From assembly GCF_008831285.2 (NCBI RefSeq), contig NC_045146.1, positions 12,641,149 to 12,705,148 of the forward strand: a stretch of 64,000 nucleotides of DNA, given 5' to 3'. The stretch's first letter is position 1. Each line of letters opens with the position of its first letter. Under the pieces are notes generated by a model. It made no database searches. It worked only from the letters and a program-made list of their open reading frames with translations, and had not been told where the DNA came from. This document shows positions 6,146 through 50,726 of the stretch, piece after piece. The stretch comes from Nymphaea colorata. Lineage: Eukaryota > Streptophyta > Magnoliopsida > Nymphaeales > Nymphaeaceae. The position numbers were made by a program, and so were the translations under genes.

Positions 6146-6358
6146 ATGGTAGCAGTTCCATTTGATTACGAAGCGGCCGCCCGCCAGTTGAGCTGCGAGT
6201 TGTTCAATGGCAGCAGCTGCTGCACCACGCAGCTTCTTCGTCCACGACTCTTCTCCTGGCCGTCGCCCTCCTCGAAGCGCTACCCGTCATGGGCTTGGCG
6301 TCGAGGCTGTCGCAAGCAGCGGTTCTCCTCTCGCCTGGAGCGCGCGCCGGCCGGTTGA
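6146..6358 (+). other. Upstream ORF overlapping the PPR start
   Basis: ATG at 6146 opens a 70-codon frame that ends at 6358, out of frame with and overlapping the PPR start at 6207. If the transcript includes 6146, this uORF would reduce translation of the main ORF. It has no recognisable domain. Confidence 0.3.
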
Positions 6359-8558
6359 CGTTGAGAAGTCGAGACGAACCCGCTACCCATTGGAGGAAAT
6401 GCCTCAGAGGCAGAGAGAAACTTTTATGTGGAACGCGATGATACGCCGTCGCGTGCAGGACGGATGCTATGATGAGGCCATCGAGATCTTTGCTCTGATG
6501 CTTCGCAGTAATTCTGCCCCTGACCGTTTTACCTTTCCCCTTGTTCTGAAGGCTTGCGCCTGTTCGTCGTCGTTGCGTGAGGGGTGGAAGATCCACTGCC
6601 GAGTCGTTAAGTTGGGATTGGATGCTGACCTATTCGTTGGCAACGCCCTTTTGGCGATGTACGCCAAATGTGGGTTTGTGGAGTGCGCCTGCCAATGGTT
6701 TGAAGAAATGCCGCAGCGGGACGCCGTCTCCTGGAATTCAATGCTGAGCGGGTACGTTTCTAATGGAGATCGCCACAATGCACTGTTGCGCTTTCGACAA
6801 ATGCAGTTTTCACAGGTGGAGGTGGACGATTTTAGCTTCATTGCGGTGCTGCAGGCGTGTGCGCTCGGTAGTTCTGTGCGACATAGGAAAGAGATCCATT
6901 GTCAGGTTATTAGGCGTGGCTTCGAGTCTAATGACATGGTTGAAGCATCCCTTATAGACATGTACTGCAAAAGTGGAAATATGGATGTTGCAGAGAAGCT
7001 ATTCAGCAGGACAAGAAGAAGAGGTGTTGTTGCTTGGAACTCAATGATAGCCGGATATACTCGTAATCGCATGCCCCATGATGCATTCGCTTCTTGCATC
7101 AGGATGCAGCTAGTTGATTTGATCAAGCCTGATCCCGTCACTTGCGTTAGCTTACTCCCTGCTTCGGCTCAATTAAGAGCTCTATTAGTGGGCAAGGCAA
7201 TTCACGCCATTGCAATCAGATGCAAGTTCATCCCCTACCTTGTTCTGGAGACTGCTCTTGTCGACATGTATACAAAGTGCAAGGACCTGAAGTCCGCAAA
7301 AGTCGCATTCAATGCAATTGATGAGAAAAACTTGGTATCATGGAATGCCATGCTTGCTGGTTACTCGCAGAATGATTGCCATGTCGATGCGATGCTACTT
7401 TTCCATGAACTGGTAACGAATGGTCCCTCCAGACCAGATGCCACAACAATCGCAAGCATCCTACCATCATACTCAGAGATTGCATCTCTGAAACAGGGGA
7501 AACAGATACACGGGTACATCATAAAACAAGGATTAGACACGAATATTTTCATCATGAACTCTGTAATTTGTATGTATTCGAAGTGTGGTGACCTGCAATT
7601 AGCACGGAAAGCATTCGATAGTATCCCAACGAAGGATGTCATCTCATGGAACTCCATTATTTCAGGATACGGAGTTCATGGCCAAGGGCATGAAGCACTT
7701 GAGCTTTTTCGTGAGATGAATGAAGCGGGCATGAGACCAAATGCCAGTACTTTTGTTTCTCTACTGTCATCTTGCAGCATGTCTGGTCTAGTTTATGATG
7801 GGTGGAAACTTTTTGAGTCTATGTCGGAAGAGTACGGCATTAGTCCTCAGATTGAACACTATGGGTGTATCATTGACCTACTTGGTCGGATGGGATGTAC
7901 AGATCTGGCTCAAAGTTTTATAGAAAGCATGCCGCTTATACCAACAGCAAGAATATGGGGATCGCTTCTGTGTGCATGCAGACATAATGGTGACATCACT
8001 TTGGCTGAGAGTACAGCTGAAAAAATATTAGCCCTGGAGCATGATAACACTGGCTGCTATATCCTATTGTCCAACATGTATGCAGAAGTTGGTAGATGGG
8101 AAGATGTCAAAAGACTGAGAGCAATGATGAGGCAACAAGGCTTGCAGAAGACAATAGGGGTCTCGGTGTTTGATTGCATCAATCACACCTGCAGCTTCTC
8201 TTATGCAGATAGATCCCATCCCGACTATAGAAGAATTCGCGCTGTGTCAGAAATTCTTTCAGGAATGATAGGTGAAGCCACTTTTGTTACGCGTAGAAAA
8301 TTTAGCTCCAAAGAAGCCTCGGAGAAGAAGGAACATTTGCCAAGCGGTCACAGTGTGAGACTGGCAATTTCGTTTGGTCTCATTTCAACTCCGGTTGGTA
8401 CTCCCATTCTAGTCAGAAAGAATGTCAGACTATGTGGTGGTTGTCACAGTGCTGTTAAATTAATCTCAAAGACATGCCGACGAGAAATCGTAGTGGGAGA
8501 CACGACGCTCTTTCACCACTTCAAAGATGGTAGATGTTGCTGTGGAGATTACTGGTGA
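6207..8558 (+). CDS. PLS-class pentatricopeptide-repeat protein with E and DYW domains, At4g35130-like
   Basis: Intronless, 783 residues. The first 60 residues are rich in Ala, Ser and Arg and low in acid, consistent with an organellar transit peptide. PPR P-L-S repeats run from about residue 70 to 570, with typical phrases such as AVSWNSMLSGY, LVDMYTKC and DVISWNSIISGYGVHG. The E/E+ region follows (about 575-680), then a DYW domain ending RCCCGDYW. DYW proteins bind organellar RNA and usually support C-to-U editing. The metal-binding CxxC is present (Cys743, Cys746), but the HxE motif reads His715-Ser-Val717, so the catalytic Glu is absent. From memory, Arabidopsis At4g35130 has the same HSVRLA wording and similar neighbouring phrases, so this looks like its orthologue rather than a broken gene. 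An out-of-frame uORF overlaps the start. Confidence 0.92.
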   Translation: MAAAAAPRSFFVHDSSPGRRPPRSATRHGLGVEAVASSGSPLAWSARRPVDVEKSRRTRYPLEEMPQRQRETFMWNAMIRRRVQDGCYDEAIEIFALMLRSNSAPDRFTFPLVLKACACSSSLREGWKIHCRVVKLGLDADLFVGNALLAMYAKCGFVECACQWFEEMPQRDAVSWNSMLSGYVSNGDRHNALLRFRQMQFSQVEVDDFSFIAVLQACALGSSVRHRKEIHCQVIRRGFESNDMVEASLIDMYCKSGNMDVAEKLFSRTRRRGVVAWNSMIAGYTRNRMPHDAFASCIRMQLVDLIKPDPVTCVSLLPASAQLRALLVGKAIHAIAIRCKFIPYLVLETALVDMYTKCKDLKSAKVAFNAIDEKNLVSWNAMLAGYSQNDCHVDAMLLFHELVTNGPSRPDATTIASILPSYSEIASLKQGKQIHGYIIKQGLDTNIFIMNSVICMYSKCGDLQLARKAFDSIPTKDVISWNSIISGYGVHGQGHEALELFREMNEAGMRPNASTFVSLLSSCSMSGLVYDGWKLFESMSEEYGISPQIEHYGCIIDLLGRMGCTDLAQSFIESMPLIPTARIWGSLLCACRHNGDITLAESTAEKILALEHDNTGCYILLSNMYAEVGRWEDVKRLRAMMRQQGLQKTIGVSVFDCINHTCSFSYADRSHPDYRRIRAVSEILSGMIGEATFVTRRKFSSKEASEKKEHLPSGHSVRLAISFGLISTPVGTPILVRKNVRLCGGCHSAVKLISKTCRREIVVGDTTLFHHFKDGRCCCGDYW

Positions 8559-9572: not shown

Positions 9573-10116
9573 ATGGATCCAACCTACAGGTTCCCTCCTC
9601 TGATCCCTCCTCTCATTTTTCATCTGTCTTCTTATTTTAGACAGAGTCATCTATGTCGTTGTTTGATATTAAGCTCTGGATCGATTGAATAGTAATATGT
9701 ACTCCATCTGATTGTGTTGATGACCTGTGATAAAATAAAGTTGCGGCAAGTGCGGCGCGTCTCTCAACCTGAGCAAGAGCCACGAATACCCTCCCGACTT
9801 TTACTTCGACGCCGGGAACAAGGGCACCCTCTCCTTCTCATGCGTCGATGGTTCCAGGTTCAATTTCGAAAAGGAGGACAAGATCATGCCCTTCTTTGAG
9901 ACGATCAACTACTGGGGGATCCAGAGGAAGAGGATCAAGATGAAGTGCGTCAGCTGCGGCAGCCTTCTGGGATACGTCTACGACGATGGTCCTCCCCAGA
10001 CGGCGACCCCGGGCCAGTTCCATATGGGCCCAAGCCAGGCCATACCCAGGTTCCCTCGGTTCAGGCTCAAACTCAAGGCCCTTTCCATACAGCCGTCCAG
10101 ACCTTTTTCCTCCTAG
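9573..10116 (+). CDS. Small CxxC zinc-ribbon-like protein, At4g08330-type
   Basis: Two exons: 9573-9589 (ATG GAT CCA ACC TAC AG) and 9741-10116, joined across an AG|T codon to give 130 residues ending at TAG. The product begins MDPTYSCGKCGASLNLSKS, then a segment rich in Phe, Gly and Ser, a second cysteine pair (KCVSCGSLLGYVYDD), then a Pro/Arg-rich basic tail. The two CxxC pairs suggest one zinc ribbon. The layout matches the plant family listed for Arabidopsis as uncharacterised protein At4g08330, with a chloroplast prediction. The first coding exon is only 17 bases and its donor (AG|GTTCCC) is weak, so the N-terminus is less sure than the second exon. The gene is convergent with NRPB1 copy A. 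Confidence 0.72.
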
Positions 10117-11411: not shown

Positions 11412-12382
11412 TCACCGAGTGCTACCCTCGTCCTTATTACTGAACTGTGGTGTATACTGGCTGGTCGATGAGGGAGAATATCCAGGCGCACTGGGGGAGT
11501 AACCAGCACTCGGACTGCAATGAACAGAACGAACTTGTTTAAGCGAAATGAGAAGAAAAGTTGTGAATCTGGAAAGCATGCACAGAAGAAGCAGAGTACC
11601 TGTATGGTGGAGAACTTGGAGTGTAGTCTGGACTGGCAACAGAATAGGTCGGGCTGTAAACAAGGAACAGAAAAAGGAAAGCATCAGCAAAGACACAAAT
11701 CATCTCTTCCTCTATTCCCTCTCTTTCAATGAAAAACTACACCGCGTGTTACTTTGGAACCGAGATTTCAGTGCTAAGAATAAACATCCAAACAGATAGG
11801 GACAAAGACACTCTTCATCAACTTCACCAGACCAACTCCATAAACATAGCGCTCACAACAAAAAAATATTTCGCAACTTCAACTTGAATCATCTGGCATC
11901 AGCCACCTTAGTTGAAGGCATTTATAGCATGCACCTAAACAAACTCCTGAAACTCGGGCTAGTACAAGTCAGATCATTCACATTCCGCCAGATAAGGTTT
12001 TAGGCCATGATAAATCAAGTCCCTACCAAATCTTCTAATCGTTAATTCAAATCAAAATTCCCATTTTGGGCATCTGAGTATATTTGAGATCAGCGTTACC
12101 ATATCCTGACTACAAACATGGCAAGGATCAATCGCGGTCTCAAAATACATTCACAGCTACAAAAGTAAATGCTATCTCTACACAAAAGAAAAAACAGCAA
12201 TGCAAGTAGACACAAAAGATGCATTTACCTGCTTGGACTATATGTAGGACTTGGTGGCGTGTGTGATGGAGATGTAGGCGAATATGATGGTGATGTAGGG
12301 CTGATAAGAAAAAACATAAGATGTCAGTTCAAAAACATGAAGGTATTGCATAAACACTAGACGTCAGTACAATTTATCAAAC

Positions 12383-13011
12383 CTGTAATTTGGAGATGAA
12401 GCACTGTAGGGGCTAGAAGGAGATATCCTTGGACTGCTTGGTGAATATGCCAGGGATGGACTGTAACGAGCTGAAGGTGGATTGTAGCTTGGAGAAGTTG
12501 GGCTGTAGCTTGGTGATGTTGGGCTGTAGCTTGGTGAAGTGGGGCTATAACCAGGCGAGGTTGGACTGTAGGCAGGAGAAGTAGGGCTATAAGAAGGTGA
12601 TGTTGGACTGTAAGTAGGTGAGGTAGGACTGTAAGAAGGTGATGTTGGACTATATGAAGGCGAAGTTGGACTATATGCAGGAGAAGTAGGACTATAAGCG
12701 GGAGAAGTAGGACTATAACTTGGTGAAGTAGGGCTATAACTTGGGGATGTAGGGCTATAGCTTGGCGAAGTGGGGCTGTAACTTGGAGATGTAGGACTAT
12801 AACTGGGTGAAGTGGGAGAGTAAGACGGGCTGGTGGGTGAATATGCAGGACTTGTTGGACTATATCCAGGAGAACTGGGACTGTATGTTGGAGAAGTGGG
12901 ACTATAGCCAGGGGAAGTAGGACTGTATCCAGGAGAAGTTGGACTATAACCAGGGGATGTAGGACTATATCCAGGAGAGGATGGACTGTATCCAGGAGAT
13001 GATGGACTGTA
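12383..13011 (-). repeat. NRPB1-A CTD-coding heptad array
   Basis: The minus-strand reading gives tandem YSPTSPx and YSPSSPx heptads at the end of the large exon, nearly identical base for base to 28877-29505. Position 7 is mostly Ser, Gly, Ala or Thr. The last three small exons continue with degenerate heptads. The array lies downstream of the frameshift. Confidence 0.9.
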
Positions 13012-15139
13012 TCCTGGTGACGAAGATGGTGAGAAAGCCATGCCACCAACATATGGAGAGAACTGTGCATCTGTAATTGGTGATGCACGGATATTTGGGC
13101 TAAACAAGTAGCTTGGGGACATCATGCCTTCATGGAATGGGGTTCCAGTGATGGGTGATCTGGATGGAGTCATGCCAAAGTCCATGCCTTCCATGTAACT
13201 GGGGAGCTGAAGTTCAATAGCTTGCTGTAGCATTTGATCATTCAGATACAAAGCACAGCCCCCCGTGCCGATGGGGGCCAACTGTCCAAGCATGATATTT
13301 TCTGTAACACCTCTTAGATGGTCTGACTCGGCATACACTGCTGCATCCAAAAGAATGTCCACAGTTTCCTCAAATGAACACCTCATCAGAGGTCCTGTGT
13401 CATTACGGTTAATACCATGACGAGTGATGGCCATTAGATGCCCGCGGTAAGTCATAGTATCGCAGAGAATAGCAAGATGTCTATAATTCACATAAGACCC
13501 ATCAAATGATATAACAACTCTCAACTCATCCAGCAGTGCTCGTCTCACAGCTTCTATTCCAAGGACTTCAATCACCTCTATCAAGTGGTTACTTGTTGTT
13601 CTTGTTGCATCCACATCCTCATGACACATAACTGCCAATAAATTGACACCCTCTGTATCCAGCATCCATTCAACTTCAGGTTTAAATCCTTCATTTTCAT
13701 CGAACTTATTTACCTTGCCAGACTTGATAAACACTTTATTGATGTCTGGGATACCACGAAGGGCCATTTCTGTTAACATGTTGCTTTCAATTTTCTTGAG
13801 GAAGACATCATCTTCTGCAGACTCATCTTGCAGTTCACCTTTGGGGGCATCGTCATTCATAATTCGTATACGGAGGATAAGCTTTTCCGCATTATCGTCA
13901 TTGAAGATGCATGTCAAATCGTCATCAAACTCAAGGTTTATTTTTTCTGCGATATCTGCCATACTCAGTTTCTTATCCACCATCATTTCCCTATTCAGTT
14001 CTATCCTAAGCAACCAAGGAGAAATCTTTTCTGGTGCAACCTCTTCATCTGGCATTTCATAGTATGACCTCACAAAATCAATATCCTCTTCAATAATTGT
14101 GGTCATTGGATCCGGATCATACCATACTTCTGTTGCCTGAGTCACACTTCGAAGAGTAGTGTACTCTAAGGCACACTGCACATTTTTGGCCTTCTCCTTG
14201 GTCTTGCTGACCTCAGGTTTGAGATACACAGACAGGGATGGAGTTTTGATTTTCTTGGCAACATTTATGATTTCTCGGAGGCGAGGCACACCAAGTGTAA
14301 CATTTTTTGCACTCACACCAGCATAATGGAATGTATTTAATGTCATCTGAGTTGCGGGTTCACCAATAGATTGTGCTGCTACGCAGCCAATCATCTCACC
14401 TGGTGCAACAAGTGACTGCAGAAAGCGAGACTCAATCTCACCAATGACCCAGTCAAATGCTTCACGTGTAAGCCTATACTCCTTCAACACACGCTTGCTC
14501 GCAAATGTGCTTCTAAGGAGTATATTGAAAAAAAGAGTAGCATTCTTTTGAGCCTCCATACTCATTGCATCCTCACCAGGTACGACCTTCAACCTCTCCT
14601 GAAGCTTGTCAACAGCTTCCACTATCTCCATAGGGTGCATATCAGATGGTCTTCTGAGGTCAACCTTAAACGTCTTTTGTGCATTCCAGATGAGCCTTTT
14701 GAGATTCACTGGCATCGGCCATGAATTGTCCCCAGTGGTAGCAATCTCTGTGGCAAGCTGCCGCCTATCTACTTCAAGCTTCTGAACTTCTGCATGGAAC
14801 ACATTCTGAAACTCTCGAATGGTTTTCAAGTCTTCCACAAAATCAGGTTGCATATAATTTGGAACCCAATTTTCATCATCAAACTCGTATCTGAAAACCT
14901 TATCAAACTCTCCCTTTTTCATTTTTAATGAATCTAGCTTCTGGGATTCAATCCATACAGCATCCATACCATCTTCCCCATAAAGAAACTGAATCACATC
15001 TCCTAACGAGTTCCTGACTGTACCATCATATTTGACCATGATGTCTTCCATAGCTTTTACAAGACGCCTCTGTATGTAACCAGTCTCTGAAGTTTTGACT
15101 GCAGTATCAATCAAACCTTCCCTACCACCCATAGCATGG

Positions 15140-15146
15140 AAAAAAA
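15140..15146 (-). other. Frameshift site in NRPB1-A
   Basis: Seven A on the plus strand between TGG and TTCC, where the intact copy has the eight bases AAAAAGAA (near 31634-31641). One base is missing and the interrupting G is lost. The minus-strand reading changes from Q-E-F-F-F-H-A-M to Q-E-F-F-S-M-L-W and reaches TGA within ten codons. Confidence 0.88.
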
Positions 15147-17554
15147 TTCCTGAGGAGTCAGCCCACGAAGATAGGAGTTCTCCACAAAACCACGACTTTC
15201 AGGCCCATAATCATCTTTAGTAAAATGTGGCAGTGTGCGGTCAATGAAACCAAAAGGAATTCGCTTTCCCTCCACATTCTGTTGACCCACACAAGCGGTC
15301 ATCTGTGAAATATTAATAAAACTTCCTTTAGATCCTGCAGTGACCATAGCTTTCAGGTTATTACTTTCAGATAAGCTCCTCTGAGCACTACTGCCGGCAT
15401 CATCACGAGCTTTGTTCAACACCTATGAAGCAAATCAAATGTAAAAAAAGTACGAGTCAGAAAGTGAGATGGACCACTGGGAAAAAGGAAGATCACAAGA
15501 AAGAGTCAAAGGACCTGATTGACTCTGTTCTCAAATGACTCCATCATGGTTCGCCCAGGTTCAGCTTCCAACTGCTTCTCCTGTGCTGCCTTGATAAGCT
15601 CTTTCACCTCATTTTTTGCTTTAGAGATCGTCTCATTAATCTTTTCCATAGTGGAAGCGTCTGCGATGGTATCTCCAATACCAATGCTAAAAGCATTCTG
15701 CAGAAGCCAATAATTGACAAGCCACTGAGTATGCCCCAAAAACTTGCGTGCAGCATCTGGGCCAACCTCTTCCCTGTATTCAAGTTCATTTATCAATTGC
15801 ATCAGTTTATATAGCATACAACAAAAACACGATGGAACAGAAATGCTTATTACATGGATTAAATTTTCATACCAGATCACATGAATAAGACTTCCAGATG
15901 ATGTACCCATGGTTTTCTTACAGAGAGTTCCTGAGAGAAGTTCTCCCTTCTCTATTCGGACACAAGTATCTCCAGGGGTAATAAATCCTGTTTCTGATTC
16001 TGAGTGCCATGCTGAGTACCTAATTAGATTTATCTGCTTTGGAATTATAAGGTTAAATACTTGCTTGCCTGTCCACAAAGGTCTAGGCTTCAAAATGGCA
16101 GGAGCAGGTATCTTTCCATCGAAATCCTCCCACCACATCAAAATATTCATGAAAACATCCTGCCAAAGATTTAAAATGCTTCATGCATGGAAGACACTTA
16201 AGGACAATAAATAAACTAACTGAAACGTTATCTTAAAGTTTAAATAACTACTTACCTTTTCTATCAAAGTGTCACGCTTTGTTATCTTTCTACATCCAAG
16301 AAGTGTATCCTGCACAATACCCATGACTGGGCGATTGGACTGCGGTGAAACAATACATTTTGGTACCATCATCAACTCCAAGACTTCTGCTCTTGTTTCA
16401 AACGACTGAGGTACATGCATGTTCATTTCATCCCCATCAAAATCAGCATTATATGGTGATGTCACTGATAAATTTAGACGGAAGGTAGAGTAAGGCATAA
16501 TTTTGATCCTATGACCCATGATAGACATTTTGTGCAGACTAGGTTGCCGATTGAAAAGGACAAAGTCTCCATCTATCAAATGCCGCTCCACCTAAGAAAT
16601 ATAATAATACACAATTATCAGAAAGTACAAAAAGTTAAAACCTTAAACCATCGAAGTAACATATTCAATGAGCTAACCAACCTTATACCCCAATTCAAGA
16701 TGGTGATCACTACTCTTTCTCAAATATCGCAGATCAACCCGCTGTCCATCTTCCCTAATGATGTACTTTGCCCCAGTTTTTCCAGGTGGTGGATGAGGTC
16801 CATTCTCAACAAGTTCCTTCAACCTATTATTCAAAGCAAAAAAGGGCAAATGATTAAAATACAAACACTCAAGCATGTGCCGATCTTATTATATAGTGTA
16901 TACCTTTCAATGTTGTATGGAGTAACAGTTTCAGGATATGTCAGATTAAGAGCAATACTCCACGGCACCCCAAGTTCATCAATATTAATAGTTGGATCGG
17001 GAGTAATAACAGTACGTGCAGAAAAATCTACACGCTTCCCCATCAAGTTCCCTCTAATCCGGCCCTCTTTTGCCTTAAGTCTACTGCAAATAGATTTAAT
17101 AGGCCTTCCGGATCTTTGTGTTGCCTGAATGATAAAAAAGGCAATTAGAGATTTCACACTTTGTAGATCACTCATAAATGACAATGCACTTTATGCATAC
17201 CCTTGGTTGACCAGGTAGCTCATTGTCAAAATATGTTGCAATGTGAAACTGCAATAACTGAGCAAACTCCGAAATTATATGTGCAGGAGCTCCATTTCTT
17301 TCCTGCCTCCTGAGATTCTCATTATGTCTAATGATCATTGCCAGCTGATGAGTTAAATCATCCTAAAGGAAGTACGCATACAAAGAAATTGTCATCAGCA
17401 GTCAAAGATGCATGCAAGGAATGCCATGGAATGAAACATTTACAAGTGAAGAAGGCTGGGATACTAACTAGATACTTATACCAACACGTAAGCTGGAATA
17501 TGTATGCAGATTACAGGTGCTTCTAACATATTAAGCAATTCTGGGATCCAAACT

Positions 17555-17563
17555 ACTTGCCTC
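17555..17563 (-). other. GC-AG intron donor in NRPB1-A intron 3
   Basis: The exon ends GTGAG and the intron begins GCAAGT, the usual context for a GC donor. The next exon opens after TTAG with D-D-L-T-H-Q, the conserved continuation. Copy B has the same GCAAGT at 34089-34084. Confidence 0.8.
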
Positions 17564-19667
17564 ACTGCGTGAAGAAGTATCCATCATCACAGATGGCCTC
17601 ACAGGAGGAGGGGGAATGGGAAGGACCTGCAAAATCATCCAATCAGGACGAGCATACTTCGGGTCCAATCCCAGAAGTAAGCAATCCTCATCGCTAATCC
17701 GTTTCAGGACATTCAAAACCTGGAAGACAACATATTGGAAGGTAATTGTTATGCAACCAGAAAAACCTTGTTAGCGAAGGTTGACCATTAGTCATTACGT
17801 TACAGAAGGAACAGAAAATAACATGTTAACAGAACAGGGCCTATGAAAAGTACCCTTTCAGCAGACAGCTGCTGCTTTCTTTCAACTGGTTCAGGAAGCA
17901 TTTGCTCCTGTTCATCAGATTTCTTTCTGGTAATCTTATATTCTGCAATCATCTTCATACCTTCAATTGTTATCTTTGGTTGCATAGCACCACAGCCTCC
18001 ACGCTTTTTCTTCTTTGGAGCATCTTCTAGATCCTGTCCTTGATCCTCATCTATGTCGTTGCCGCCTTCACATTTTTGTTTGTTTTTACAACAATCCAGA
18101 ACTTTCTTCAGTCGAGATTTTGGATTTCTGACTTTCAAGGCTTGCTTGAACCGATGATCGTCCTAAAATGAGGAACAGATACGGATATTTATTTCGCCAA
18201 AATAAAACAATCAAAACTGCAAAGTGTGCACAATATGAAACCATATCCAGAGGGTGTTTTGCTTCCTATGACCAAAAAAATGGTCCAGAAAGCAAGAAAT
18301 GATATTTTTCATTTAAGAATTTGTCAAAGCCAATTAAGCCAACAAAAGCTAAACGTGATAAATTGATCACCTGTAACAAGAACCAAACTATGAAAAATAA
18401 TCAAGCACTAATTTACCAGCGATACAATCCCAGATGCAACACACTAACATATTAGACCAAAACACAGACGCATGAAATATTCCGGTAATGCGCGGATATA
18501 GAAACTGCCACATCGGGAAGCAAATAGGTTAGTTTTCTTGGCCTCAAGATGGAAGAAAGAGCTATCGGAAATAATAATGCAGGAAACCAGGTGAACCAAG
18601 CACCAACCAGCCACAATGATTACGACGAGTGTTAAAGCCACATACATACTCAAGCAACAAACAACATCAACATTCACAAAGTGCAAAGGAAACTAATAGC
18701 AATTTCATTTGCAAGAAGTTGCAGTCCCTGGATCCTAAATGTGCTAAAATCACGACCTTGGAATAACATGTGCTCCCTCCCATATTCATATATCGGAGCT
18801 AAAATACAGGAGACAAAATTTTGCTTCTTCTTGGAGGAGCACCAGAAGAGAATTTCCCCACTGCCGAATTAGAGCATAATGCCTCGAACAGAAGGGGGGA
18901 AATGGAGGAGGGAGTGGCTTCAAGAGAGAAAGGACAACGGACTGTTACAGAAGCATAAATGAGATAGTCACCTCATCAGCAAGAATGTGCGAGCAATTGA
19001 AGCAGACGCAGCGCAGTATAGCGAGCACCGTCTTTATGAACCCGATATGGAACATCGGCTTGGCAAGCTCCAGGTGACCGAAGTGACCGGGGCACTCCGC
19101 CATGTTTGCGGAGCACGTCTCGCACTTCACCTTCCGGTCGATGGTACCAAGTCGGGGATCGCTAAGCCCCGCGGGCTTGGGCTTGCCTCGGTCCATCGTC
19201 TCGCCGTGCTCGATCTGCACGACGGACATCTGGCGGATCTCGTCAGGACTGAGGATGCCAAACTGAACGGTCTGCACCTTGGCGACTTCCGCCGGGGAGT
19301 AAGGAAACCGCGTATCCATGGCTACTCCTCCTCCTTCTCCTACCCTCCTCTCAATTCAACGGCTTCTTCCCCTTTTCCCTCCTCCACTTCCTTTCGATTT
19401 TCCCTTTTTTACAATGTCAAATTCTGCAGTTAACTGACGAAAGATGTCCCCTTAAGAATTCTGTGAATTAGATCAATTGCAGTTGGGGGAAGAAAAAGAT
19501 TATCGAATGGTTGCTTCTCATTTCCCTCCAAAACCCCCCGTTTCTTTTTTCGATTCTTACCCGCTGGACCACCACCACCACCTCACTCGGAGATGGAGGG
19601 AAGGAACCAAACCCTAGCAAGGGCAGGGTGAGAAGAGAACGAACGTAAGATCCTCCCATCGATCACT

Positions 19668-20904: not shown

Positions 20905-21681
20905 GAAAAGCTGGTCAGCTATCTTCTCAGATCCCACTCTCAACTACTAGTCGTACCACTCAAGTAATGGAGCCCAAACTAATGATCCTTGTCAATTATC
21001 TGTTCATTTTGTTCGTTGCTAATTAATCATGATCAATCATATATAATAAAATGAGCCAATCTTAGTCAATAAAAGTGGAATATTAAGTAATGTCCTTGGT
21101 TTCACAACCAGGATTAATTTGCCTAATATTTTTAAAAAACTATAACGTCCAACAAATCTGATCCCCGGTAAAATCTTGTGCGTTCAAACAAACCCATGCA
21201 ATGGTGAAATTTTAGGTTTAAATATATAACCACCGATCATGCATGCGGATAAAATTCTGCAGAAACTCAAAATTAAGTTTGATCTTTTCGTGTGTAAGTA
21301 ATTGTTAACCTCCTTCTTGCTGCAGTTGCACTCAAGAAGAAGATCTACGCAGGTCTCGCAGTCGTAAGTTTCACGAATCGGAGAGTGGTTCTTCTGCGAT
21401 TTAGCGAAATGGATGATAGCCATAACAGTAAGGTCCAGCCTTTTGATGAAGAGATTCTTGAATAGACCATTAAACTGTCGAGATCTGTAGGTTTTTTGTT
21501 CCTTTGTTCATATAACACTGGTACAAATCTAAAAAATGCCGGACTTCCTGCCAAGTTTGATGGGCCTTCGCCTTACGGAAGGTGCCACACACCAACAGTA
21601 ACAAAGCAATGAACAATTAGAATTACGATGGAACGTAGTAAAGTAATGAATGAATGAATTGTTGATGCCGTCTGTTGAACG
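19676..21681. other. Intergenic between NRPB1-A and X1
   Basis: To about 19870 the sequence is homologous to the copy B promoter region (for example CGGGTCAAACAGTTCGG at 19754 and 36295). Beyond that it is AT-rich with no gene. It contains a long TA microsatellite, and from about 20930 (CTCAACTACTAGTCGTACCA) short matches to the region upstream of X2 (40447). Confidence 0.5.
20843..20900. repeat. (TA)29 microsatellite
   Basis: Uninterrupted TA dinucleotides for 58 bases. Confidence 0.95.
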
Positions 21682-22155
21682 TCAGTCGATCAGCAACCGG
21701 GGAAGTTCGGCCTGCGTCCGCCTCTTCCACAGGCTCACCTCATTCGTTTTCCGGCGGGGCGGCGCAGCCACCGCGCTCATCCTTATTGCACCAACCGCCG
21801 CCTCGGTGCCCGTAGAGCTCCGCGGCATGGCTTCAGCTGCAGGGAAAGCCAGAAGTCTGTTCCGTCCGCCCATCACGCGCGGCATTCGATAAGCCGAATT
21901 TCTCTGCGAAGGCTGCCTTTTCACCTGCTTCCCCAAGCTGCTTGCACGCGCCAGCTTTTTCTTATCCATGCTCTTGCACCTGACCATCCCCATGCAAGCA
22001 ACGCCTGGGGCAGCCGGCCCATCCTGGGCAAGCTCGCCGGATTTCGCCGAAGTTACGCTGGTGGCCGGCGATGCGTCCAAGTCAAGACTCTTCTCGCCAG
22101 GAAACCAAAACCGGCGAGCCTTGCGGAGGAAACCAGACAGGCTGATGCTCGGCAT
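21682..22155 (-). CDS. Small basic protein X1 (uncharacterised, paralogue of X2 and X3)
   Basis: A single-exon frame of 157 residues, much richer in GC than its surroundings. It begins MPSISLSGFLRKARRFWF, continues through an acidic-to-polar stretch (SLDLDASPA), then a central motif CMGxxRxKSMDKxKLA and ASSLGKQVKRQPS, and ends GAIRM..VAAPPR..T.E.SLW.RRTQAE.PRL.ID. Basic residues dominate. I see no membrane segment, signal peptide or catalytic motif and cannot name the family. Two close paralogues on the same strand at 41.3 and 45.8 kb keep these motifs, the length and a TATA box, and that conservation is the main argument that it is a real gene. Other frames over the same bases are shadows of the GC-rich composition. 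Confidence 0.72.
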   Translation of the reverse strand: MPSISLSGFLRKARRFWFPGEKSLDLDASPATSVTSAKSGELAQDGPAAPGVACMGMVRCKSMDKKKLARASSLGKQVKRQPSQRNSAYRMPRVMGGRNRLLAFPAAEAMPRSSTGTEAAVGAIRMSAVAAPPRRKTNEVSLWKRRTQAELPRLLID

Positions 22156-22335
22156 GGATGAAGCCGGATCTTATTAAACACCACCGATTTAACTACTGCA
22201 ACAAGAAGTACAAAACGAAAGAGAAAGCTTGTGGATATAGTTATGATCAGAAGAAGAGAGGACTGTAACTAGGGATTCGGATGCTGTTGTTGCTGTTGTG
22301 GGAAGTGGGGAAGAGATACGCGCACATGCAGTGCA

Positions 22336-22341
22336 TATATA
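22336..22341 (-). promoter_or_regulatory. TATA box of X1
   Basis: CTATATATGCA on the minus strand, about 180 bases upstream of the X1 start. The same element sits at matching distance before X2 and X3. Confidence 0.55.
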
Positions 22342-22342
22342 G

Positions 22343-25600: not shown

Positions 25601-27000
25601 AAAGGGGCATTTTATATTGCAAATATCTGATGTTTATCTTTATCAGAAAAAAAGAAAATCAAGTATTATAAAATACAGTGACGATGGGCGGATGCAAATA
25701 TATGCATATCTCCTTAAATACCAACCAAATATATCTTATGAAATTTACGATTCTATATATATATATATATATATAGAGGTTGAAAATCAAGTATTATATT
25801 AGTAAATGCAAATTATAAGTTCGTGTGTTGTGTTTAATTTTTTAAACTATACCCAGTAATAATAATACACTATTTAGTTGTCTCCAAATAACGTTGCTTT
25901 TTTTTTTTAACACTTAAAATAACTGTTTGATATTTTTTTATTAACGTTAGAGAGTTCTTCGGGAAAATCTTAATCGCATTAATAAAGTCACACATGTTTT
26001 CAGAGTAAAATGGTAAAGTTTAACAATTAAATTTTCATATCACAAAAGTAAATTTCACCGCCGTAATTTAATGTTGCCAATGTTCATACAAGGGGAAATT
26101 TGAAGTTTGAAGCACAGAGAAAATCTCTAAATATTGGAACCTCTTAAGACCGTTCTACGACTTCAAGCACATGTTCGTTCCGTGCTTCTCACAGATGCCA
26201 TAAATAATTGTTTGAAACATTGATGGTGAGGTTGACAGTGATGACGAGCGCGATCTCAGGAACGATGAACTCAGCGATGATGAAGTTGCTGATGATGAAC
26301 TTGTTTCACACGGGCAATGCGCCGCACATGAAATCAATGTTGTTAGAATCGGTCTCAGTCGGCTGATTCAAATGGAGTGCGCGTTAATGCCATGTGCCAG
26401 CTTTTAATTATTTTTAAATATTTTAAAATTTTATTATTATTATTACTATTATTATCTATTTCATTTCGGTTTAAAGATAACTTTATAATTTTTTGCCAAT
26501 TGACAAATGATCCGAATCATAGGTGAGGGAGATGGGTTGAAATTTATAGAATCAAAATTCAAGACCCACTTAAATACCTGGTCAATAAAACTGAAAGTTG
26601 AGCCCCTTATCACGAATATGTTTGCAGCATTGAAATGTCACCAAATATTGATAAAAATGGGAAAAAAATGTAAATAATTGGAAGGAAAATATCCAAAACA
26701 CAACCTAACTTAGAATCGACAATAATCGAAAGCACACTTAAGCTTTTGCATATTGCTAAAAACATTCTTGAGTTTTTCTAAAAGGATCATAATATTATTT
26801 TTGAACATTTATTTGTCAAATAATCAAATTTTATCATTAAAAAGGGCGTAGATCCGAATCACGAACCTAACAATACAGACCTGACTGTTGTTCTTCAAAA
26901 TTTTCATTTATTCGATAAAATTATGAATACGAACATGAAATATATACATAGTACACACGACCCGATTTAAAGGAGGCAAAAGACACACTTAGTCGTCAAC
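25600..27000. other. Intergenic, no gene recognised
   Basis: Very AT-rich, with a TTA/TTATTA run near 26430-26460. A minus frame at 26155-26337 is Ser-rich because of a GATGATGAA-type repeat on the plus strand and is not supported as a gene. Confidence 0.4.
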
Positions 27001-27470
27001 GAAAGGTCAGACTGCTTCAACCAGATTGATACACTACTATTACTATATTTTTTAGAATGAAGAAGCGTGTTCCTCTCATATGATAATTGATACACCACTA
27101 AACTATTTTTTATAGAATGAAGAAGCGTGTTCCTCTCATATGATAACTTCTGTCTTGATCAACAGCAGTTGTTGCAGGCTATCCCAGCTTCCAAGCGTCT
27201 CCTCTCCAACCATCAAGAGCTATCTATCAACTTGGCTTACTCCACGCACTGCAGCCTTGGCTTCAGATGAATGGGGATCGTCAAGAAATGCCGACTGCTT
27301 CCCGTCCTTATTACTGGACTGTGGAAGTGGTGTGTACCGGCTGCAGGTCATTGCAACCGAGAATCCGGTGTTGGAAACGCCATCCAAACAGATTGGGGCG
27401 AAGACGATTTTTACTCCACCAGACCGACTCCATGAACGTAACGCTCATAAATTAACGATTTTCCCTTTTC
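27001..27470 (-). pseudogene. Degenerate third NRPB1 3' end
   Basis: From CTGCTTCAACCAGATTGATAC (about 27009) the sequence follows the 3' flank of copies A and B: 'caaccatcaagagctatc', 'cgcactgcagccttggcttcagatgaa', 'gtcaagaaatgc' and the last-exon stretch 'ccttattactggactgtgg'. At about 27357 it jumps to a segment like copy A intron 11 (around 11757-11855: 'atccaaacagat', 'caccagacc.actccat'), so the exon 12 region is deleted. The 5' part also holds an internal duplication of about 61 bases (AGAATGAAGAAGCGTG twice, near 27054 and 27115). It is a relic at the junction between the two duplication units and has no coding capacity. Confidence 0.7.
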
Positions 27471-27824: not shown

Positions 27825-30800
27825 TCAACGAGTGCTTCCCTTGTCCTTATTACTGAACTGTGGTGTGTACTGGCTGGTCGATGACGGAGAATATCCAGGT
27901 GCACTTGGGGAGTAACCAGCACTCGGACTGCAATGAGCAGAACGGAAGACTCATTTAAGTGAAAAGAGAAGCAAAGTTGTGAATCTGGTAAACATGCAAA
28001 GAAGATGGAAACCGTGTAATGGCGCTTTGTACCTGTAAGGTGGAGAACTTGGAGTGTAGTCTGGACTGGCAACAGAATAAGGAGGGCTGAAAACAAGGAA
28101 AAGAAATAGAAAATATCAGCAAAGACAAAAAGAACCCACGCTTTCCGACGTTCACCTTCCCTTTCTCTTTTAGTGAAAATCTACCCGGCAAGCATTGTGC
28201 AACTGATAATTCATTGTTAAGACCGACACACAAACAGATGCAAAAACATGCTCTTCATCAACTTCACCTGATGGCCTCTAAACATAGCACTGACAATAAA
28301 ACATTTTGTGACGTCAAACTTGAACCACGTGGCATTGACCACCTCATTTAAAGACATTTAAGGCATGCATAACAGCAAACTGCCGAAACTCAGGTCTATT
28401 CAGGTGAGACCATTCACAGTCCCCCAGATAAGGATTTAGCCCATCAAAATTCTAATCAAGTCCCTCTAAAATCTCCTAATCGTTTAAATCATCTCAAATT
28501 CTCATTTTGCACATCTGACTATTGAAACCAATGTCATCATAACCAGATTACGACCCCTGCATGGTTCAACCATGGCATCCAAATACATCCATAGCTACAT
28601 AAAATAATGCAGTTTGTACACTTGAAAGAAAAACAAAAAAAACAAAAAACAAAACAAAACAAACAAACAAAGCAAAACAAAAGCAATCTGTAAAGACAAA
28701 CAAAATGCATTTACCTGCTGGGGCTATACGTAGGACTTGGTGGTGTGTATGATGGAGATGTAGGTGAATATGATGGTGATGTAGGGCTGTGACGACAAAA
28801 TAGCAAAAAAACAAACAGGTCAGTTCAAATACTGAAGCATCGTATATTATAAACGCTCAATGCCAAAGTTCTGCACCTGTAATTTGGAGATGATGCACTG
28901 TAGGGGCTGGAGGGAGATATCCTTGGACTGCTTGGTGAATATGCCAGGGATGGACTGTAACGAGCTGAAGGTGGATTGTAGCTTGGAGAAGTTGGGCTGT
29001 AGCTTGGCGATGTTGGACTGTAGCTTGGTGAAGTGGGGCTATAACCAGGTGAGGTTGGACTGTAGGCAGGAGAAGTAGGGCTATAAGAAGGTGATGTTGG
29101 ACTGTAAGTAGGTGAGGTAGGACTGTAAGAAGGTGATGTTGGACTATATGAAGGCGAAGTTGGACTATATGCAGGAGAAGTAGGACTATAAGCTGGGGAA
29201 GTAGGACTATAACTTGGTGAAGTGGGGCTATAACTTGGGGATGTGGGGCTATAGCTTGGCGAAGTGGGGCTGTAACTTGGAGATGTAGGGCTATAACTGG
29301 GTGAGGTGGGAGAGTATGATGGACTGGTGGGTGAATATGCAGGACTTGTTGGACTATAACCAGGAGAGCTGGGACTGTATGTTGGAGAAGTGGGACTATA
29401 GCCAGGGGAAGTAGGACTGTACCCAGGAGAAGTTGGACTATAACCAGGGGATGTAGGACTATATCCAGGAGAGGATGGACTGTATCCAGGAGATGATGGA
29501 CTGTATCCTGGTGACGAAGATGGTGAGAAAGCCATGCCACCAACATATGGAGAGAACTGTGCATCTGTAATTGGTGATGCGCGGATATTTGGGCTAAACA
29601 AGTAGCTTGGGGACATCATGCCTTCATGGAATGGGGTTCCAGTGATGGGTGATCTGGATGGAGTCATGCCAAAGTCCATGCCTTCCATGTAACTAGGGAG
29701 CTGAAGTTCAATAGCTTGCTGTAGCATTTGATCATTCAGATACAAAGCACAGCCCCCCGTTCCAATGGGGGCCAACTGTCCAAGCATGATATTCTCTGTA
29801 ACACCTCTTAGATGGTCTGACTCGGCATACACTGCTGCATCCAAAAGAATGTCCACAGTTTCCTCAAATGAACACCTCATCAGAGGTCCTGTGTCATTAC
29901 GGTTAATACCATGACGAGTGATGGCCATTAGATGCCCGCGGTAAGTCATAGTATCGCATAGAATAGCAAGATGTCTATAATTCACATAAGACCCATCAAA
30001 TGATATAACAACTCTCAACTCATCCAGCAGCGCACGTCTCACAGCTTCTATTCCAAGGACTTCAATCACCTCTATCAAGTGGTTACTTGTTGTTCTTGTT
30101 GCATCCACATCCTCATGACACATAACTGCCAATAAATTGACACCCTCCGTATCCAGCATCCATTCAACTTCAGGTTTAAATCCTTCATTTTCATCGAACT
30201 TACTTACCTTGCCAGACTTGATAAACACTTTATTGATGTCTGGGATACCACGAAGGGCCATTTCTGTTAACATGTTGCTTTCAATTTTCTTGAGGAAGAC
30301 ATCATCTTCTGCAGACTCATCTTGCAGTTCACCTTTGGGGGCATCGTCATTCATAATTCGTATACGGAGGATAAGCTTTTCCGCATTATCATCATTGAAG
30401 ATGCATGTCAAATCGTCATCAAACTCGAGGTTTATTTTTTCTGCGATATCTGCCATACTCAGTTTCTTATCCACCATCATTTCCCTATTCAGTTCTATCC
30501 TAAGCAACCAAGGAGAAATCTTTTCTGGTGCAACCTCTTCATCTGGCATTTCATAGTATGACCTCACAAAATCAATATCCTCTTCAATAATTGTGGTCAT
30601 TGGATCCGGATCATACCATACTTCTGTTGCCTGAGTCACACTTCGAAGAGTAGTGTACTCTAAGGCACACTGCACATTTTTGGCCTTCTCCTTGGTCTTG
30701 CTGACCTCAGGTTTGAGATACACAGACAGGGATGGAGTTTTGATTTTCTTGGCAACATTTATGATTTCTCGGAGGCGAGGCACACCAAGTGTAACATTTT

Positions 30801-33800
30801 TTGCACTCACACCAGCATAATGGAATGTATTTAACGTCATCTGAGTTGCTGGTTCACCTATTGATTGTGCTGCTACGCAGCCAATCATCTCACCCGGTGC
30901 AACAAGTGACTGCAGAAAGCGAGACTCAATCTCACCAATCACCCAGTCAAATGCTTCACGTGTAAGCCTATACTCTTTCGACACACGCTTGCTTGCAAAT
31001 GTGCTTCTAAGGAGTATATTGAAAAAAAGAGTAGCATTCTTTTGAGCCTCCATACTCATTGCATCCTCACCAGGTACAACCTTCAGCCTCTCCTGAAGCT
31101 TGTCAACAGCTTCAACAATCTCCATAGGGTGCATATCAGATGGTCTTCTTAGGTCAACCTTAAACGTCTTTTGTGCATTCCAAATAAGTCTTTTGAGATT
31201 CACCGGCATTGGCCATGAGTTGTCCCCAGTGGTAGCAATCTCTGTGGCGAGCTGCCGCCTATCTGCTTCAAGCTTCTGAACTTCTGCATGGAAAACATCC
31301 TGAAGCTCTTTAATGGTTTTCAAGTCTTCCACAAAATCAGGTTGCAAATAACTTGGATCCCAATTTTCATCATCAAACTCAAACCTGAAGACCTTATCAA
31401 ACTCTGCCTTTTTCATTTTTAATGAATCAAGCTTCTGTGATTCAATCCAAACAGCATCCATACCATCTTCCCCATAAAGAAACTGAATCACATCTCCTAA
31501 CGAGTTCCTGACTGTACCGTCATATTTGACCATGATGTCCTCCATAGCTTTTACAAGACGCCTCTGTATGTAACCAGTCTCTGAAGTTTTGACTGCAGTA
31601 TCAATCAAACCTTCCCTACCACCCATAGCATGGAAAAAGAATTCCTGAGGAGTCAGCCCACGAAGATAGGAGTTCTCCACAAAACCACGACTTTCAGGCC
31701 CATAATCATCTTTAGTAAAATGTGGCAGTGTGCGATCAATGAAACCAAAAGGAATTCGCTTTCCCTCCACATTCTGTTGACCAACACAAGCAGTCATCTG
31801 TGAAATATTAATAAAACTTCCTTTAGACCCTGCAGTGACCATTGCTTTCAGGTTATTACTTTCAGATAAGCTCCTCTGAGCACTACTGCCAGCATCATCA
31901 CGAGCTTTGTTCAACACCTGTGAAGTAAATGAAAGGAAAGCACAAGTGAGAAGGAACATGATCACTAGGAAATAAAAAGCTATAGAAACAGTCAAGAACC
32001 TGATTGACTCTATTCTCAAATGACTCCATCATGGTTCGCCCAGGTTCAGCTTCCAACTGTTTCTCCTGTGCTGCCTTGATAAGCTCTTTCACCTCATTCT
32101 TTGCTTTAGAGATCGTCTCATTAATCTTTTCCATAGTGGAAGCATCGGCAATGGTATCCCCAATACCAATGCTAAAAGCATTTTGCAGAAGCCAATAATT
32201 AACAAGCCACTGAGTATGCCCCAAAAACTTGCGTGCTGCATCTGGACCCACCTCTTCCCTATATTCAATTTCATTTATTGATTGTATAGTGTACAACAAA
32301 AATCACCAAGAAGTAACAACATTTAGTAGATTGATTCAATTTTCTTACCAGATAACATGAATAAGACTTCCAGATGATGTGCCCATGGTTTTCTTACAGA
32401 GGGTCCCCGAGAGAAGTTCTCCCTTCTCTATTCGGACACAAGTGTCTCCAGGGGTAATAAATCCCGTTTCTGATTCTGAATGCCATGCTGAGTACCTAAT
32501 CAAATTTATCTGCTTTGGAATTATAAGGTTAAATACTTGTTTGCCTGTCCACAAAGGTCTAGGCTTCAAAATGGCAGGAGCAGGTATCTTTCCAGCAAAA
32601 TCCTCCCACCACATCAAAATGTTCATGAACACATCCTGCCAAAGTATTAAAAGAGCTTATGTAATAGCATGAAGGACTCTTAAGGACACTAACTAAACTA
32701 ACACAATCATTATCTTAAAGTTTAAAAAATCAAATCAACTACTTACCTTTTCTATGAAGGTATCACGCTTTGTAATCTTCCTACACCCAAGAAGTGTATC
32801 CTGCACAATACCCATGACTGGCCGATTGGATTGTGGTGAAACAATACACTTTGGTACCATCATCAACTCCAAGACTTCTGCTCTAGTTTCAAAAGACTGA
32901 GGTACATGCATGTTCATTTCATCCCCATCAAAATCAGCATTATATGGTGATGTCACTGATAAATTTAGACGGAAGGTAGAGTAAGGCATAATTTTTATCC
33001 TATGTCCCATGATAGACATTTTGTGTAGACTGGGTTGCCGATTGAAAAGGACAAAGTCTCCATCTATCAAATGCCGCTCCACCTAAGAAATATAACAAGG
33101 CATATTATCAAAAAATATAAAAGTAAAACCTTCCACCTTTAAAGTAACAAATTCACCGAGCTAACAAACCTTATACCCCAATTCAAGATGGTGATCACTA
33201 CTCTTTCTCAAATATCGCAGATCAACTCGCTGTCCATCTTCCCTAATGATGTATTTTGCCCCAGTTTTTCCAGGTGGTGGATGAGGTCCATTCTCAACAA
33301 GTTCTTTCAACCTAATATTCAAGGCAAATAGGGGTTAACAATTCAGATACAAATAGATATAAAGATATCAACCAAGCATATGTAGATCTTAGTTATATAC
33401 CGTTCAATGTTGTAAGGAGTAACAGTTTCAGGATATGTCATATTAAGAGCAATACTCCACGGCACCCCAAGTTCATCAATGTTAATAGTTGGATCAGGAG
33501 TGATGACAGTACGAGCAGAAAAATCTACACGCTTCCCCATCAAGTTCCCTCTAATCCGGCCCTCCTTAGCCTTAAGTCTACTGCAAATAGATTTAATAGG
33601 CCTTCCGGATCTTTGTGTAGCCTGAATGACAGGAATAGCAATTAGAGATTTCATAATTTGTCCACAAATTATAAATGTTAGTGGACCTTGTGCATACCCT
33701 AGGCTGACCAGGTAGCTCATTGTCAAAATATGTTGCAACGTGAAACTGCAATAACTCAGCAAACTCTGAAATTATATGTGCAGGAGCTCCATTTCTTTCC

Positions 33801-35884
33801 TGCCTCCTGAGATTCTCATTATGCCTTATGATCATTGCCAGCTGATGAGTTAAATCATCCTATAGCAAGCATACATCAAAGAAGTTCTCATTAGCAGTCA
33901 CAGATGCATGCATGAAATGCAATGGAAATGAAATATTAAAAAATGAAACACAGAAAATAGAAACAAATATAATACCTCTATAGTTCCTAAATAGATACTC
34001 AAATCAACAACTAAATGCGTAAGTCTATGCAGATTAGAAGTGCCAGTAACAGGGACAAATCAAACAATACTGGGTCTAAAACCACTTGCCTCACTGCGTG
34101 AAGAAGTATCCATCATCACAGACGGCCTCACAGGAGGAGGCGGAATGGGAAGGACCTGTAAAATCATCCAATCAGGGCGAGCATACTGCGGATTCAACCC
34201 CAGAAGTAAGCAATCTTCATCGCTAATTCGTTTCAGGACATTCAAAACCTGCAACACAATATATTAGAAGAAAGTGTCCCAAAATCGGAAAAATCTTGCT
34301 AGAAAAAGGTTTTATCATTATGTTTAACGAAGGAACAGAAAATAACACGTTAATAGAACAAGGCCTGTGAAAAGTACCCTTTCAGCAGATAGCTGTTGTT
34401 TTCTTTCAACTGGTTCAGGCAGCATTTGCTCCTGTTCATCAGATTTCTTTCTAGGAACCTTGTATTCGGCAATTATCTTCATACCTTCAATTGTTATTTT
34501 TGGTTGCATAGCACCACAGCCCCCACGTTTTTTCTTCTTTGGGGCATCTTCTAAATCCTGTCCTTGATCCTCATCGATGTCATCGCCACCTTCACATTTT
34601 TGTTTGCTTTTACAGCAATCCAAAACTTTCTTCAGTCGAGCTTTTGGATTTCTGATTTTCAAGGCTTGCTTGAACCGATGATCCTCCTAAAAGAACAGAT
34701 TGATAAGGATATATACTTCGTCAATATAAAGAAAATAACAGTAGAAAGTATGCACAATATGAAACCATATCAAACGGTGTTTTACTTCCTACAACCGAAA
34801 AAAAAAATTACAACATTGTTCTTAAGGTCTTGTCACAACTAAAGCCCAAACAATGCTAAACGTAATAAATATCAAGAAGCATGATCACCTGTAACAAGAA
34901 ACAAGCTACACAAAAAGTTGAAGCACCGATCCCCAGTGACATAAATACAGCCGCAACACGACAACATATTGGACAGAAGAAGGTCGTAGAGGGATGAAGT
35001 ATTCCAGTAATGCACGGACCAGAAGAATACAAATTGTCACATTAAGAAGTCACACAGCGCAATTTTGTTCGCCTCAAGATTGAAGAATGAACTATCCAGA
35101 ATACTCTAGTAAAAAAAACCATGTGGAACCAAGCACCAACCAGACATAATGATTGCAAAGAAGGTTAAACCCACATACTCAAGCAACAAACAACAACGGT
35201 ATTCGCAAACGTGCAAATTCATTCCCTTATGAAAAGGAAAACTAATAGCTACTTTAACCTTTAAGTTGCAAGAATTTGCACTTCCGCTCGGTCCAAAATG
35301 TGCTAAGCCTAAAAAATCACAACCCTATAAAAACAAGTACAATCTCCCCGTATTCATATGTCTGCACCAAAAAGACAGAAGCCAGACTATTGTCTCCTTC
35401 GTGGAGGAGCACCAAAAAGAGATTTCCACGCTGCCGAATTAAGGCATAACGTCTCGAATAGCGGGAAAAATTGAGGGAATTGTTTCAAGAGAGAAAGGAC
35501 AACGGGCTGTTACAAAAGCATGGATGAGCTAGTCACCTCATCGGCGAGAATGTGCGAGCAATTGAAGCAGACGCACCGCAGTATAGCAAGGACCGTCTTC
35601 ATGAACCCGATATGGAACATCGGCTTGGCGAGCTCCAGGTGACCAAAGTGACCGGGGCACTCCGCCATGTTCGCCGAGCACGTCTCGCACTTCAACTTCC
35701 GGTCGATGGTACCAAGCCGGGGATCACTAAGCCCCGCGGGCTTGGGCTTTCCGCGGTCCATCGTCTCGCCGTGCTCAATCTGCACGACGGACATCTGCCG
35801 GATCTCGTCGGGACTGAGGATGCCGAACTGAACCGTCCGCACCTTGGCGACTTCCGCCGGAGAGTAAGGAAACCGCGTATCCAT
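27825..35884 (-). CDS. NRPB1: RNA polymerase II largest subunit, copy B (intact)
   Basis: Thirteen exons on the minus strand: 35884-35537, 34686-34378, 34248-34090, 33859-33698, 33621-33401, 33311-33170, 33082-32747, 32635-32349, 32258-32000, 31917-28877, 28786-28715, 28086-28033, 27927-27825. They sum to 5493 bases and 1830 residues, close to the length known for plant NRPB1. Features in order: N-terminal zinc cysteines and histidines (Cys66-x2-Cys69, Cys76-x2-His79, Cys104-109), catalytic NADFDGD with Asp497, Asp499 and Asp501, bridge helix around 826-860 ([12 protein letters not shown]), trigger-loop region near 1102-1121 (LNTFHYAG), and a CTD from residue 1546 of about 35 heptad-like repeats ending in an acidic tail. 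This subunit catalyses mRNA synthesis in the nucleus, and its CTD recruits capping, splicing and termination factors. The start is the conserved [15 protein letters not shown]. Intron 3 has a GC donor. Confidence 0.96.
28877..29505 (-). repeat. NRPB1-B CTD-coding heptad array
   Basis: Tandem heptads, mostly YSPTSPx, on the minus strand at the end of exon 10. Near the end they degenerate ([19 protein letters not shown]). Three further small exons add degenerate heptads and the C-terminal tail. Confidence 0.93.
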
Positions 35885-41808: not shown

Positions 41809-41978
41809 GGATGAAGGTCGATCTTGGTAAGCACCACCGATTTAAGCACCGTAACAAGGAGTACAGGAAGAAAGTGGGAGAGCTTGTGGATTACGAGAAG
41901 AAGAGAGAACTGTAACTAGGGATTTGGATGCTGTTGTTGTTGTGGAAGTACAAGAACAGACATGCGGAGATAATATGC

Positions 41979-41985
41979 ATATATA
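41979..41985 (-). promoter_or_regulatory. TATA box of X2
   Basis: CTATATATGCAT on the minus strand, about 175 bases before the start codon, inside a promoter shared with X3 and recognisable at X1. Confidence 0.55.
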
Positions 41986-43242: not shown

Positions 43243-43291
43243 TGGCAGGGATGAAACCAAGGGGGGCTTGCAGGGGCCTTGGGCCCCCCTT

Positions 43292-43367
<76 letters not shown>

Positions 43368-49883: not shown

Positions 49884-49928
<45 letters not shown>

Positions 49929-50694: not shown

Positions 50695-50726
<32 letters not shown>

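Follow-up and report, generated by a model that had tools for sequence, protein, structure and literature searches.

Two tandem genes for NRPB1 (RPB1), the largest subunit of RNA polymerase II, lie within the window, the whole stretch of 64,000 nucleotides of Nymphaea colorata DNA analysed here (C9:12641149-12705148 of an assembly of 407.8 Mb in 783 contigs), and one of them, copy A, loses its reading frame through the absence of a single base at 15140-15146. This missing base is probably an error of the assembly consensus. The two genes and their exons are as follows.

11412..19319, - strand: NRPB1 copy A, with the ATG at 19319 and, in the frame shared with copy B, the terminal stop at 11412; based on exon chain, splice ends, translation and alignment with copy B
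19319-18972, 18162-17854, 17719-17561, 17362-17201 and 17124-16904, - strand: copy A exons 1-5
16823-16682, 16591-16256, 16159-15873, 15773-15515 and 15422-12383, - strand: copy A exons 6-10
12300-12229, 11653-11600 and 11514-11412, - strand: copy A exons 11-13
12383..15422, - strand: copy A exon 10 (3040 nt), with bridge helix, trigger loop and most of the CTD, the portion past the gap being out of frame
27825..35884, - strand: NRPB1 copy B, intact, with 13 exons and 1830 aa; exon 10 at 31917-28877 (3041 nt)

Copies A (19319..11412) and B (35884..27825) each consist of 13 matching exons, whose limits were set by conservation between the copies and by splice consensus, not by transcripts, the exon ends of copy B having been transferred from copy A via the alignment. 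All 12 introns of both copies have GT-AG ends, except intron 3, which is GC-AG in both (17560-17363 in A; 34089-33860 in B) with a common GCAAGT donor, and a TATAAAT motif is found at 19675 for A and at 36220 for B. The assignment to NRPB1 follows from the likeness of copy A to the intact copy B exon by exon and from the alignment of the bridge-helix and trigger-loop stretches with the RPB1 chains of yeast and further eukaryotes in the PDB; the differences are that the frame of A ends at the bridge helix and that two tandem copies are present here. The metal-A motif (N)ADFDGD occurs at residue 495 of B, with identical residues in A. A DNA search of the assembly with 14600-15430 gave two matches, A and B, and the bridge-helix part of B, used as a protein query, gave 12, namely B, A (in two pieces) and nine weaker matches at 29-67% identity, so that only B and the two pieces of A reached at least 94% identity. 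A and B are thus the only NRPB1 genes found in the assembly. We found no report of a tandem NRPB1 duplication in the open-licence PMC literature.

The lesion itself comprises two features.

15140..15146, - strand: run of seven T on the coding strand, with a single-base gap relative to copy B at B codon 834, equivalent to F813-F815 of yeast Rpb1
15111..15113, - strand: premature stop codon of copy A, starting at 15113, after 844 residues

The original prediction, which had placed seven A on the + strand at these positions and a one-base shortening in exon 10 of copy A (3040 against 3041 nt), is borne out, and the same bases are found when the whole assembly is consulted. On the coding strand, A reads GGAATT-TTTTTCC and B reads GGAATTCTTTTTCC; this gap is the only one in exon 10 and in the whole coding alignment, the other 12 exons being gap-free. 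Translation of the exon chain of A ends, as had been predicted, after 844 residues, 835 of them in the native frame and nine foreign. The site was also correctly placed in the bridge-helix codons, as it corresponds to F813-F815 by count along the alignment with yeast Rpb1, whose bridge helix we take to extend from about 810 to 845, which puts the gap at the start of the helix. Bridge helix and trigger loop are complete in the reading frame of B and incomplete in A, where the frame is lost at codons 834-836. The heptad-repeat CTD is in frame in B, with 29 YSP(S/T)SP units, and the CTD repeats of A are gap-free but out of frame with the start codon of A; trigger loop and CTD both lie downstream of the premature stop and are missing from the predicted product. 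The rest of copy A is as intact as had been claimed, with splice ends kept in 12 of 12 introns, an uninterrupted CTD-coding stretch and its own TATAAAT, and in the frame that matches B there is no stop in the 995 codons past the gap. An artefact of the splice model can be ruled out, as the T run begins 276 bases inside exon 10 and a tblastn search with the B protein finds, within the exon, 94 residues that are 100% identical before the gap and, past it, a further 704 aligned residues in the other frame.

At the site equivalent to the gap, B has an interrupted run, whereas the run of A is an uninterrupted T7. The seven T of copy A could have arisen by two routes. The interrupting base may itself have been lost, or a silent third-position change may have produced a longer run in A from which one unit was then lost; either loss may have happened in the plant or have been introduced by the consensus. 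The latter route would require a prior substitution and would then meet a site at which slippage and miscalling are both common. Shortening of the run by itself at the site in A also requires an earlier silent third-position change in that copy.

Apart from this gap, copy A carries no other lesion, neither a second gap nor a second stop, and its sequence is that of a gene maintained by selection. In one MAFFT alignment of A and B, on which all these gap counts rest, there is one gap in 5,492 aligned coding bases versus 54 gap openings in 2,336 aligned intron bases; for exons 1-9 and the introns between them, the figures are 0 in 2,223 and 39 in 1,611. About 63 coding indels would be expected on the branch of A had it been unconstrained throughout, and with one observed (95% upper bound 4.74) the unconstrained share of the branch is at most 7.5%. 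Ka/Ks between A and B is 0.046 over 1,829 compared codons, the gapped codon being excluded (0.040 upstream and 0.054 downstream of the gap), and even if all amino-acid differences, as an upper bound, are assigned to a dead copy A, its dead share is at most 13%. Because Ka/Ks is this low, copy A has been under constraint for nearly all its history, and an old pseudogene is therefore excluded, by the indel bound as well as by the Ka/Ks bound.

What these bounds leave room for is a very young lesion. Under this alternative, which we consider possible but the less probable, the gap is real and constitutes a very recent null allele of A, either fixed or segregating, whose transcript would undergo nonsense-mediated decay while B supplies Pol II, as a first step towards a pseudogene. 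With synonymous rates of 2.6-6.5e-9, which may not suit this plant, the Ks of 0.233 upstream of the gap would date the duplication to 18-45 My ago and the lesion to no more than 1.3-3.4 My ago. Such an allele is consistent with both bounds, but it requires a narrow slice of time in which no second lesion was acquired. The newborn pseudogene that had been suggested for copy A thus survives as a rival, but it ranks below an error, and the data show only that the lesion must be very young. Copy A resembles a recently disabled tandem duplicate, or single-lesion pseudogene, in its kept introns, its one disabling indel and the intact sister adjoining it, and differs in that it is without other signs of decay and in that the lesion may be absent from the plant. 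A precedent is found in the Violaceae, where, according to the passages of PMC2834690 that treat these genes, 23 of 73 NRPD2/E2-like Viola sequences are putative pseudogenes. These frameshifted paralogs of the Pol IV/V second subunit, as described in the same passages, are likewise duplicates of a nuclear polymerase subunit with one copy disabled; they are NRPD2/E2 genes, however, and the pseudogene of Allexis carries three frameshifts, with stop codons in every frame (PMC2834690), whereas the gene here encodes the largest subunit of Pol II and has one lesion.

The amino-acid differences between the copies also bear on a null allele. There are 32 in total, nine of which fall within codons 912-959 (14913-14770), after the bridge helix. 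Comparison with outgroup chains, which we take from their entry codes to be yeast, S. pombe (3h0g) and mammal, covered 26 of the 32 and yielded 11 sites at which the outgroup fits one copy only, B agreeing at nine and A at two. Sixteen of the differences were read by eye against chains 3h0g and 7ega_o, with B agreeing at 238, 240 and 313, A at 307, a split at 387 and 11 uninformative sites. The other 10 were read from a joint alignment with a yeast segment and a 7ega_o segment, in which B agrees at 912, 920, 928, 930, 932 and 946 and A at 948, three being uninformative; 928 and 930 no longer line up with yeast when A is aligned alone, unlike in the joint alignment. This imbalance, which would favour a null allele, gives a weak hint that A may be changing faster than B, the outgroups being distant and the alignment there leaning partly on B.

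Two further features of the locus concern exchange between copies and their loss.

13936..14340, - strand: probable gene-conversion tract, 135 codons in which A and B agree at every base, from within the trigger-loop region onward
26992..27450, - strand: degenerate NRPB1 3'-end fragment, a short way downstream of copy B and in the same orientation, that retains parts of the 3' flank, of exon 13 and of intron 11

None of 5000 shuffles of all differing codons contained a run as long as the 135-codon run, and 3000 random draws by synonymous site gave it a P of 0.0003. Ks per 100 codons is 0.11-0.35 over codons 1-800, 0.06 over 801-900, 0.30 and 0.19 in the next two hundreds, 0.015-0.065 over 1101-1600 and 0.14-0.36 beyond, and 35-38% of the aligned bases differ between the copies in the introns flanking exon 10. 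These patterns of divergence suggest that gene conversion has probably taken place within exon 10.

Three pieces of the degenerate fragment, 96-105 columns long, are 72-77% identical to A, and one of 36 columns is 86% identical; to B the fragment has 71% identity over 191 columns. About 300 bases are missing between its parts. Because this decayed 3' end persists beside copy B, a further NRPB1 copy has been largely lost at the locus, and such an earlier loss speaks for a null allele of A. The same is true of a tandem HSP70 copy at C5:882300-884700, which has a seven-base deletion relative to its two neighbouring copies and whose frame is otherwise open to the end of the domain, showing that tandem copies do die in this genome.

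To return to the consensus error that we favour, two stretches of exon 10 bear on whether a base could have been dropped from copy A.

14528..14534, - strand: second T7 run in exon 10 of copy A, in frame and of the same length as B 31028-31022; internal control
15049..15239, - strand: substitution-free stretch around the frameshift, 63 compared codons in which A equals B; P 0.10 and 0.21, not significant

The nearest substitutions between A and B, at 15240 and 15046, are 94 bases from the run on each side. Because substitutions are absent over that distance both ways, a short read cannot readily be placed in one copy or the other, and short-read correction may have been hampered at the gap and may have left an error standing. 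The published Nymphaea colorata assembly of 409 Mb in 804 scaffolds was, according to the sections of PMC7015852 that describe it, assembled by Canu from PacBio RSII reads, with Arrow and Pilon used for polishing. The 63-codon identity is not used as a date for the lesion by gene conversion, given its lack of significance. No second haplotype contig with copy A was found among the assembly DNA matches to 14600-15430, which are A and B only.

More direct evidence on the quality of the assembly comes from its plastid contigs. C783, of 159,842 bp, matches the polymerase family in a stretch common to other small contigs, and from this shared stretch and its size we infer that it is the plastome. 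C17, C297, C290 and C710 were each compared with it over one plastid stretch of 3.35 kb; the stretches of C17 and C297 are identical to C783, and those of C290 and C710 show 13 and four gap events, respectively, with no mismatches. In each of the 17 events it is C290 or C710 that lacks one or two bases, within a run of 2-11 identical bases. Differences that are confined to indels, to runs and to deletions are the mark of consensus errors of single-molecule reads. Because the plastid-contig differences are only of this kind, they are presumably errors, and the suspected error class very probably exists in this assembly, which weighs against a real null allele, base losses in runs being seen in two of the four stretches. 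The gap in copy A resembles a homopolymer base-loss error of a long-read consensus in that one base is missing at a single-base run, and it is of the same class as the 17 events; it differs in lying on a chromosome, not on a small unplaced contig, and in that the run of the intact copy is interrupted.

The error class was seen on the small unplaced contigs C290 and C710 only, whose quality may fall short of that of chromosome C9. Among the chromosomal HSP70 matches, 13 with a length of 1,095 bases or above, adding up to 19,224 bases, have no break inside any of them; these were the matches of that length without a stop among 59 in all, shorter exon pieces and obvious pseudogene fragments being excluded, as was one more match of such length, on the small contig C745, that has a stop. 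One of the HSP70 matches, on C5, abuts a break, which is the seven-base deletion mentioned above and not a run error. A tubulin search gave 43 matches, eight of them on small contigs and the rest mostly of one exon each, which were too short per exon and were left unused. Several in-frame TAA and TAG codons and few or no TGA codons were observed in the polymerase matches on C446 and in the tubulin-search matches on C497 and C38, all small contigs; these matches presumably belong to a contaminant eukaryote that would read TAA and TAG as sense, in the manner of ciliates.

Within the NRPB1 pair, the gap affects one of the two seven-base runs in the coding sequence of A. Each copy has five other coding runs that are six or seven bases long, its second T7 among them, and all ten of these are in frame, an observation that counts for a null allele. 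The lengths of homopolymers in the window, which reach 20, are uninformative. Near copy A, the frames of copy B, of a pentatricopeptide gene and of a small two-exon gene are uninterrupted. The pentatricopeptide neighbour, at 6192-8558 on the + strand, is an unbroken PPR reading frame of 788 aa with an E motif and a DYW deaminase domain; the two-exon gene, at 9573-10116 on the + strand, encodes a cysteine-containing protein (CGKCG ... CVSCG), its splice ends having been placed by eye. Repeats that are 75-93% alike occur elsewhere in the window at 21662-22423, 40872-42306, 45343-46759 and 42296-52812, and the repeat reading frames at 21679-22158, 41299-41811, 41329-41838 and 49976-50305 gave no Pfam match.

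An assembly error had been one of the three readings offered for the gap in the original prediction, and it is the best supported of them by virtue of the base losses confined to runs that distinguish the plastid contigs, although the chromosomal coding runs and HSP70 matches are unbroken. We favour a consensus error over a recent null allele because the plastid contigs show the error class and because short-read polishing would be weak at the site, the weighing of the two being a matter of judgement. On this view copy A is a complete tandem duplicate of NRPB1, which purifying selection has maintained, alongside some conversion with B, until now or nearly so. The base, presumably present in the plant, would have dropped out of the consensus at a T run, in an exon whose duplication makes it difficult to tell which copy a short read comes from.

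If the gap is real, copy A might be thought to give a stable, truncated subunit of 844 residues that hinders the assembly of Pol II or has a function of its own. The part in frame does contain the metal-A motif and reaches the start of the bridge helix. A premature stop far upstream of the exon end and followed by introns is, however, the textbook setting for nonsense-mediated decay, and the stop of copy A is separated from the end of exon 10 by 2,728 nt and has three introns downstream, so that decay of the mRNA is predicted. The missing half, moreover, comprises the remainder of the bridge helix together with the trigger loop and the CTD, and the constraint kept past the gap implies that a truncated form could have become the product only recently. 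The truncated or dominant-negative polymerase suggested earlier is thus not supported, and we regard such a product as very improbable.

The constraint past the gap would also be expected if the frameshift were real but tolerated, with slippage of Pol II or of the ribosome on U7 restoring the native frame in some products and A persisting as a low-output gene, and the run is indeed uninterrupted in A and interrupted in B. The canonical slippery heptamer follows the rule X XXY YYZ, to which GAA UUU UUU UCC does not conform, and the 102 nt downstream in A fold little better than shuffled sequences (z -1.16, with 23 of 200 at least as stable; z -0.80 in B). Partial correction of oligo-A frameshifts in atpB, which needs a homopolymeric stretch, is described for the chloroplasts of Oenothera and tobacco in the relevant passages of PMC8254509. 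In the same passages, however, the chloroplast deletions had about 5% residual activity when assayed in E. coli, and transcriptional slippage was judged to need more than an A8 tract (PMC8254509). Copy A and atpB share a frameshift at a homopolymer run of a housekeeping gene; as far as those passages of PMC8254509 go, atpB encodes a plastid ATP synthase subunit, its oligo-A run is near the 5' end, its insertion is best corrected and there is protein evidence, whereas copy A has a one-base loss in a T7 run inside a nuclear gene and is known here from its sequence alone. There is accordingly little to recommend frame restoration, and we give very small credence to the idea that copy A, though frameshifted, is still alive as a gene for the Pol II catalytic subunit, with full-length output by slippage on its own T7. 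Were that reading true, the infidelity of Pol II would set the enzyme's own level.

NRPB1 is the largest subunit of the enzyme that makes plant mRNA, and the state of copy A has consequences under either of the two main readings. Should the gap be real, a core-gene duplicate that was maintained through a synonymous divergence of about 0.23 is being seen just as it is lost, and one intact NRPB1 is left in the assembly. If the gap is an error, as we consider probable, annotation could wrongly lose or split one of the genes, and the living plant would have two working NRPB1 genes in tandem.
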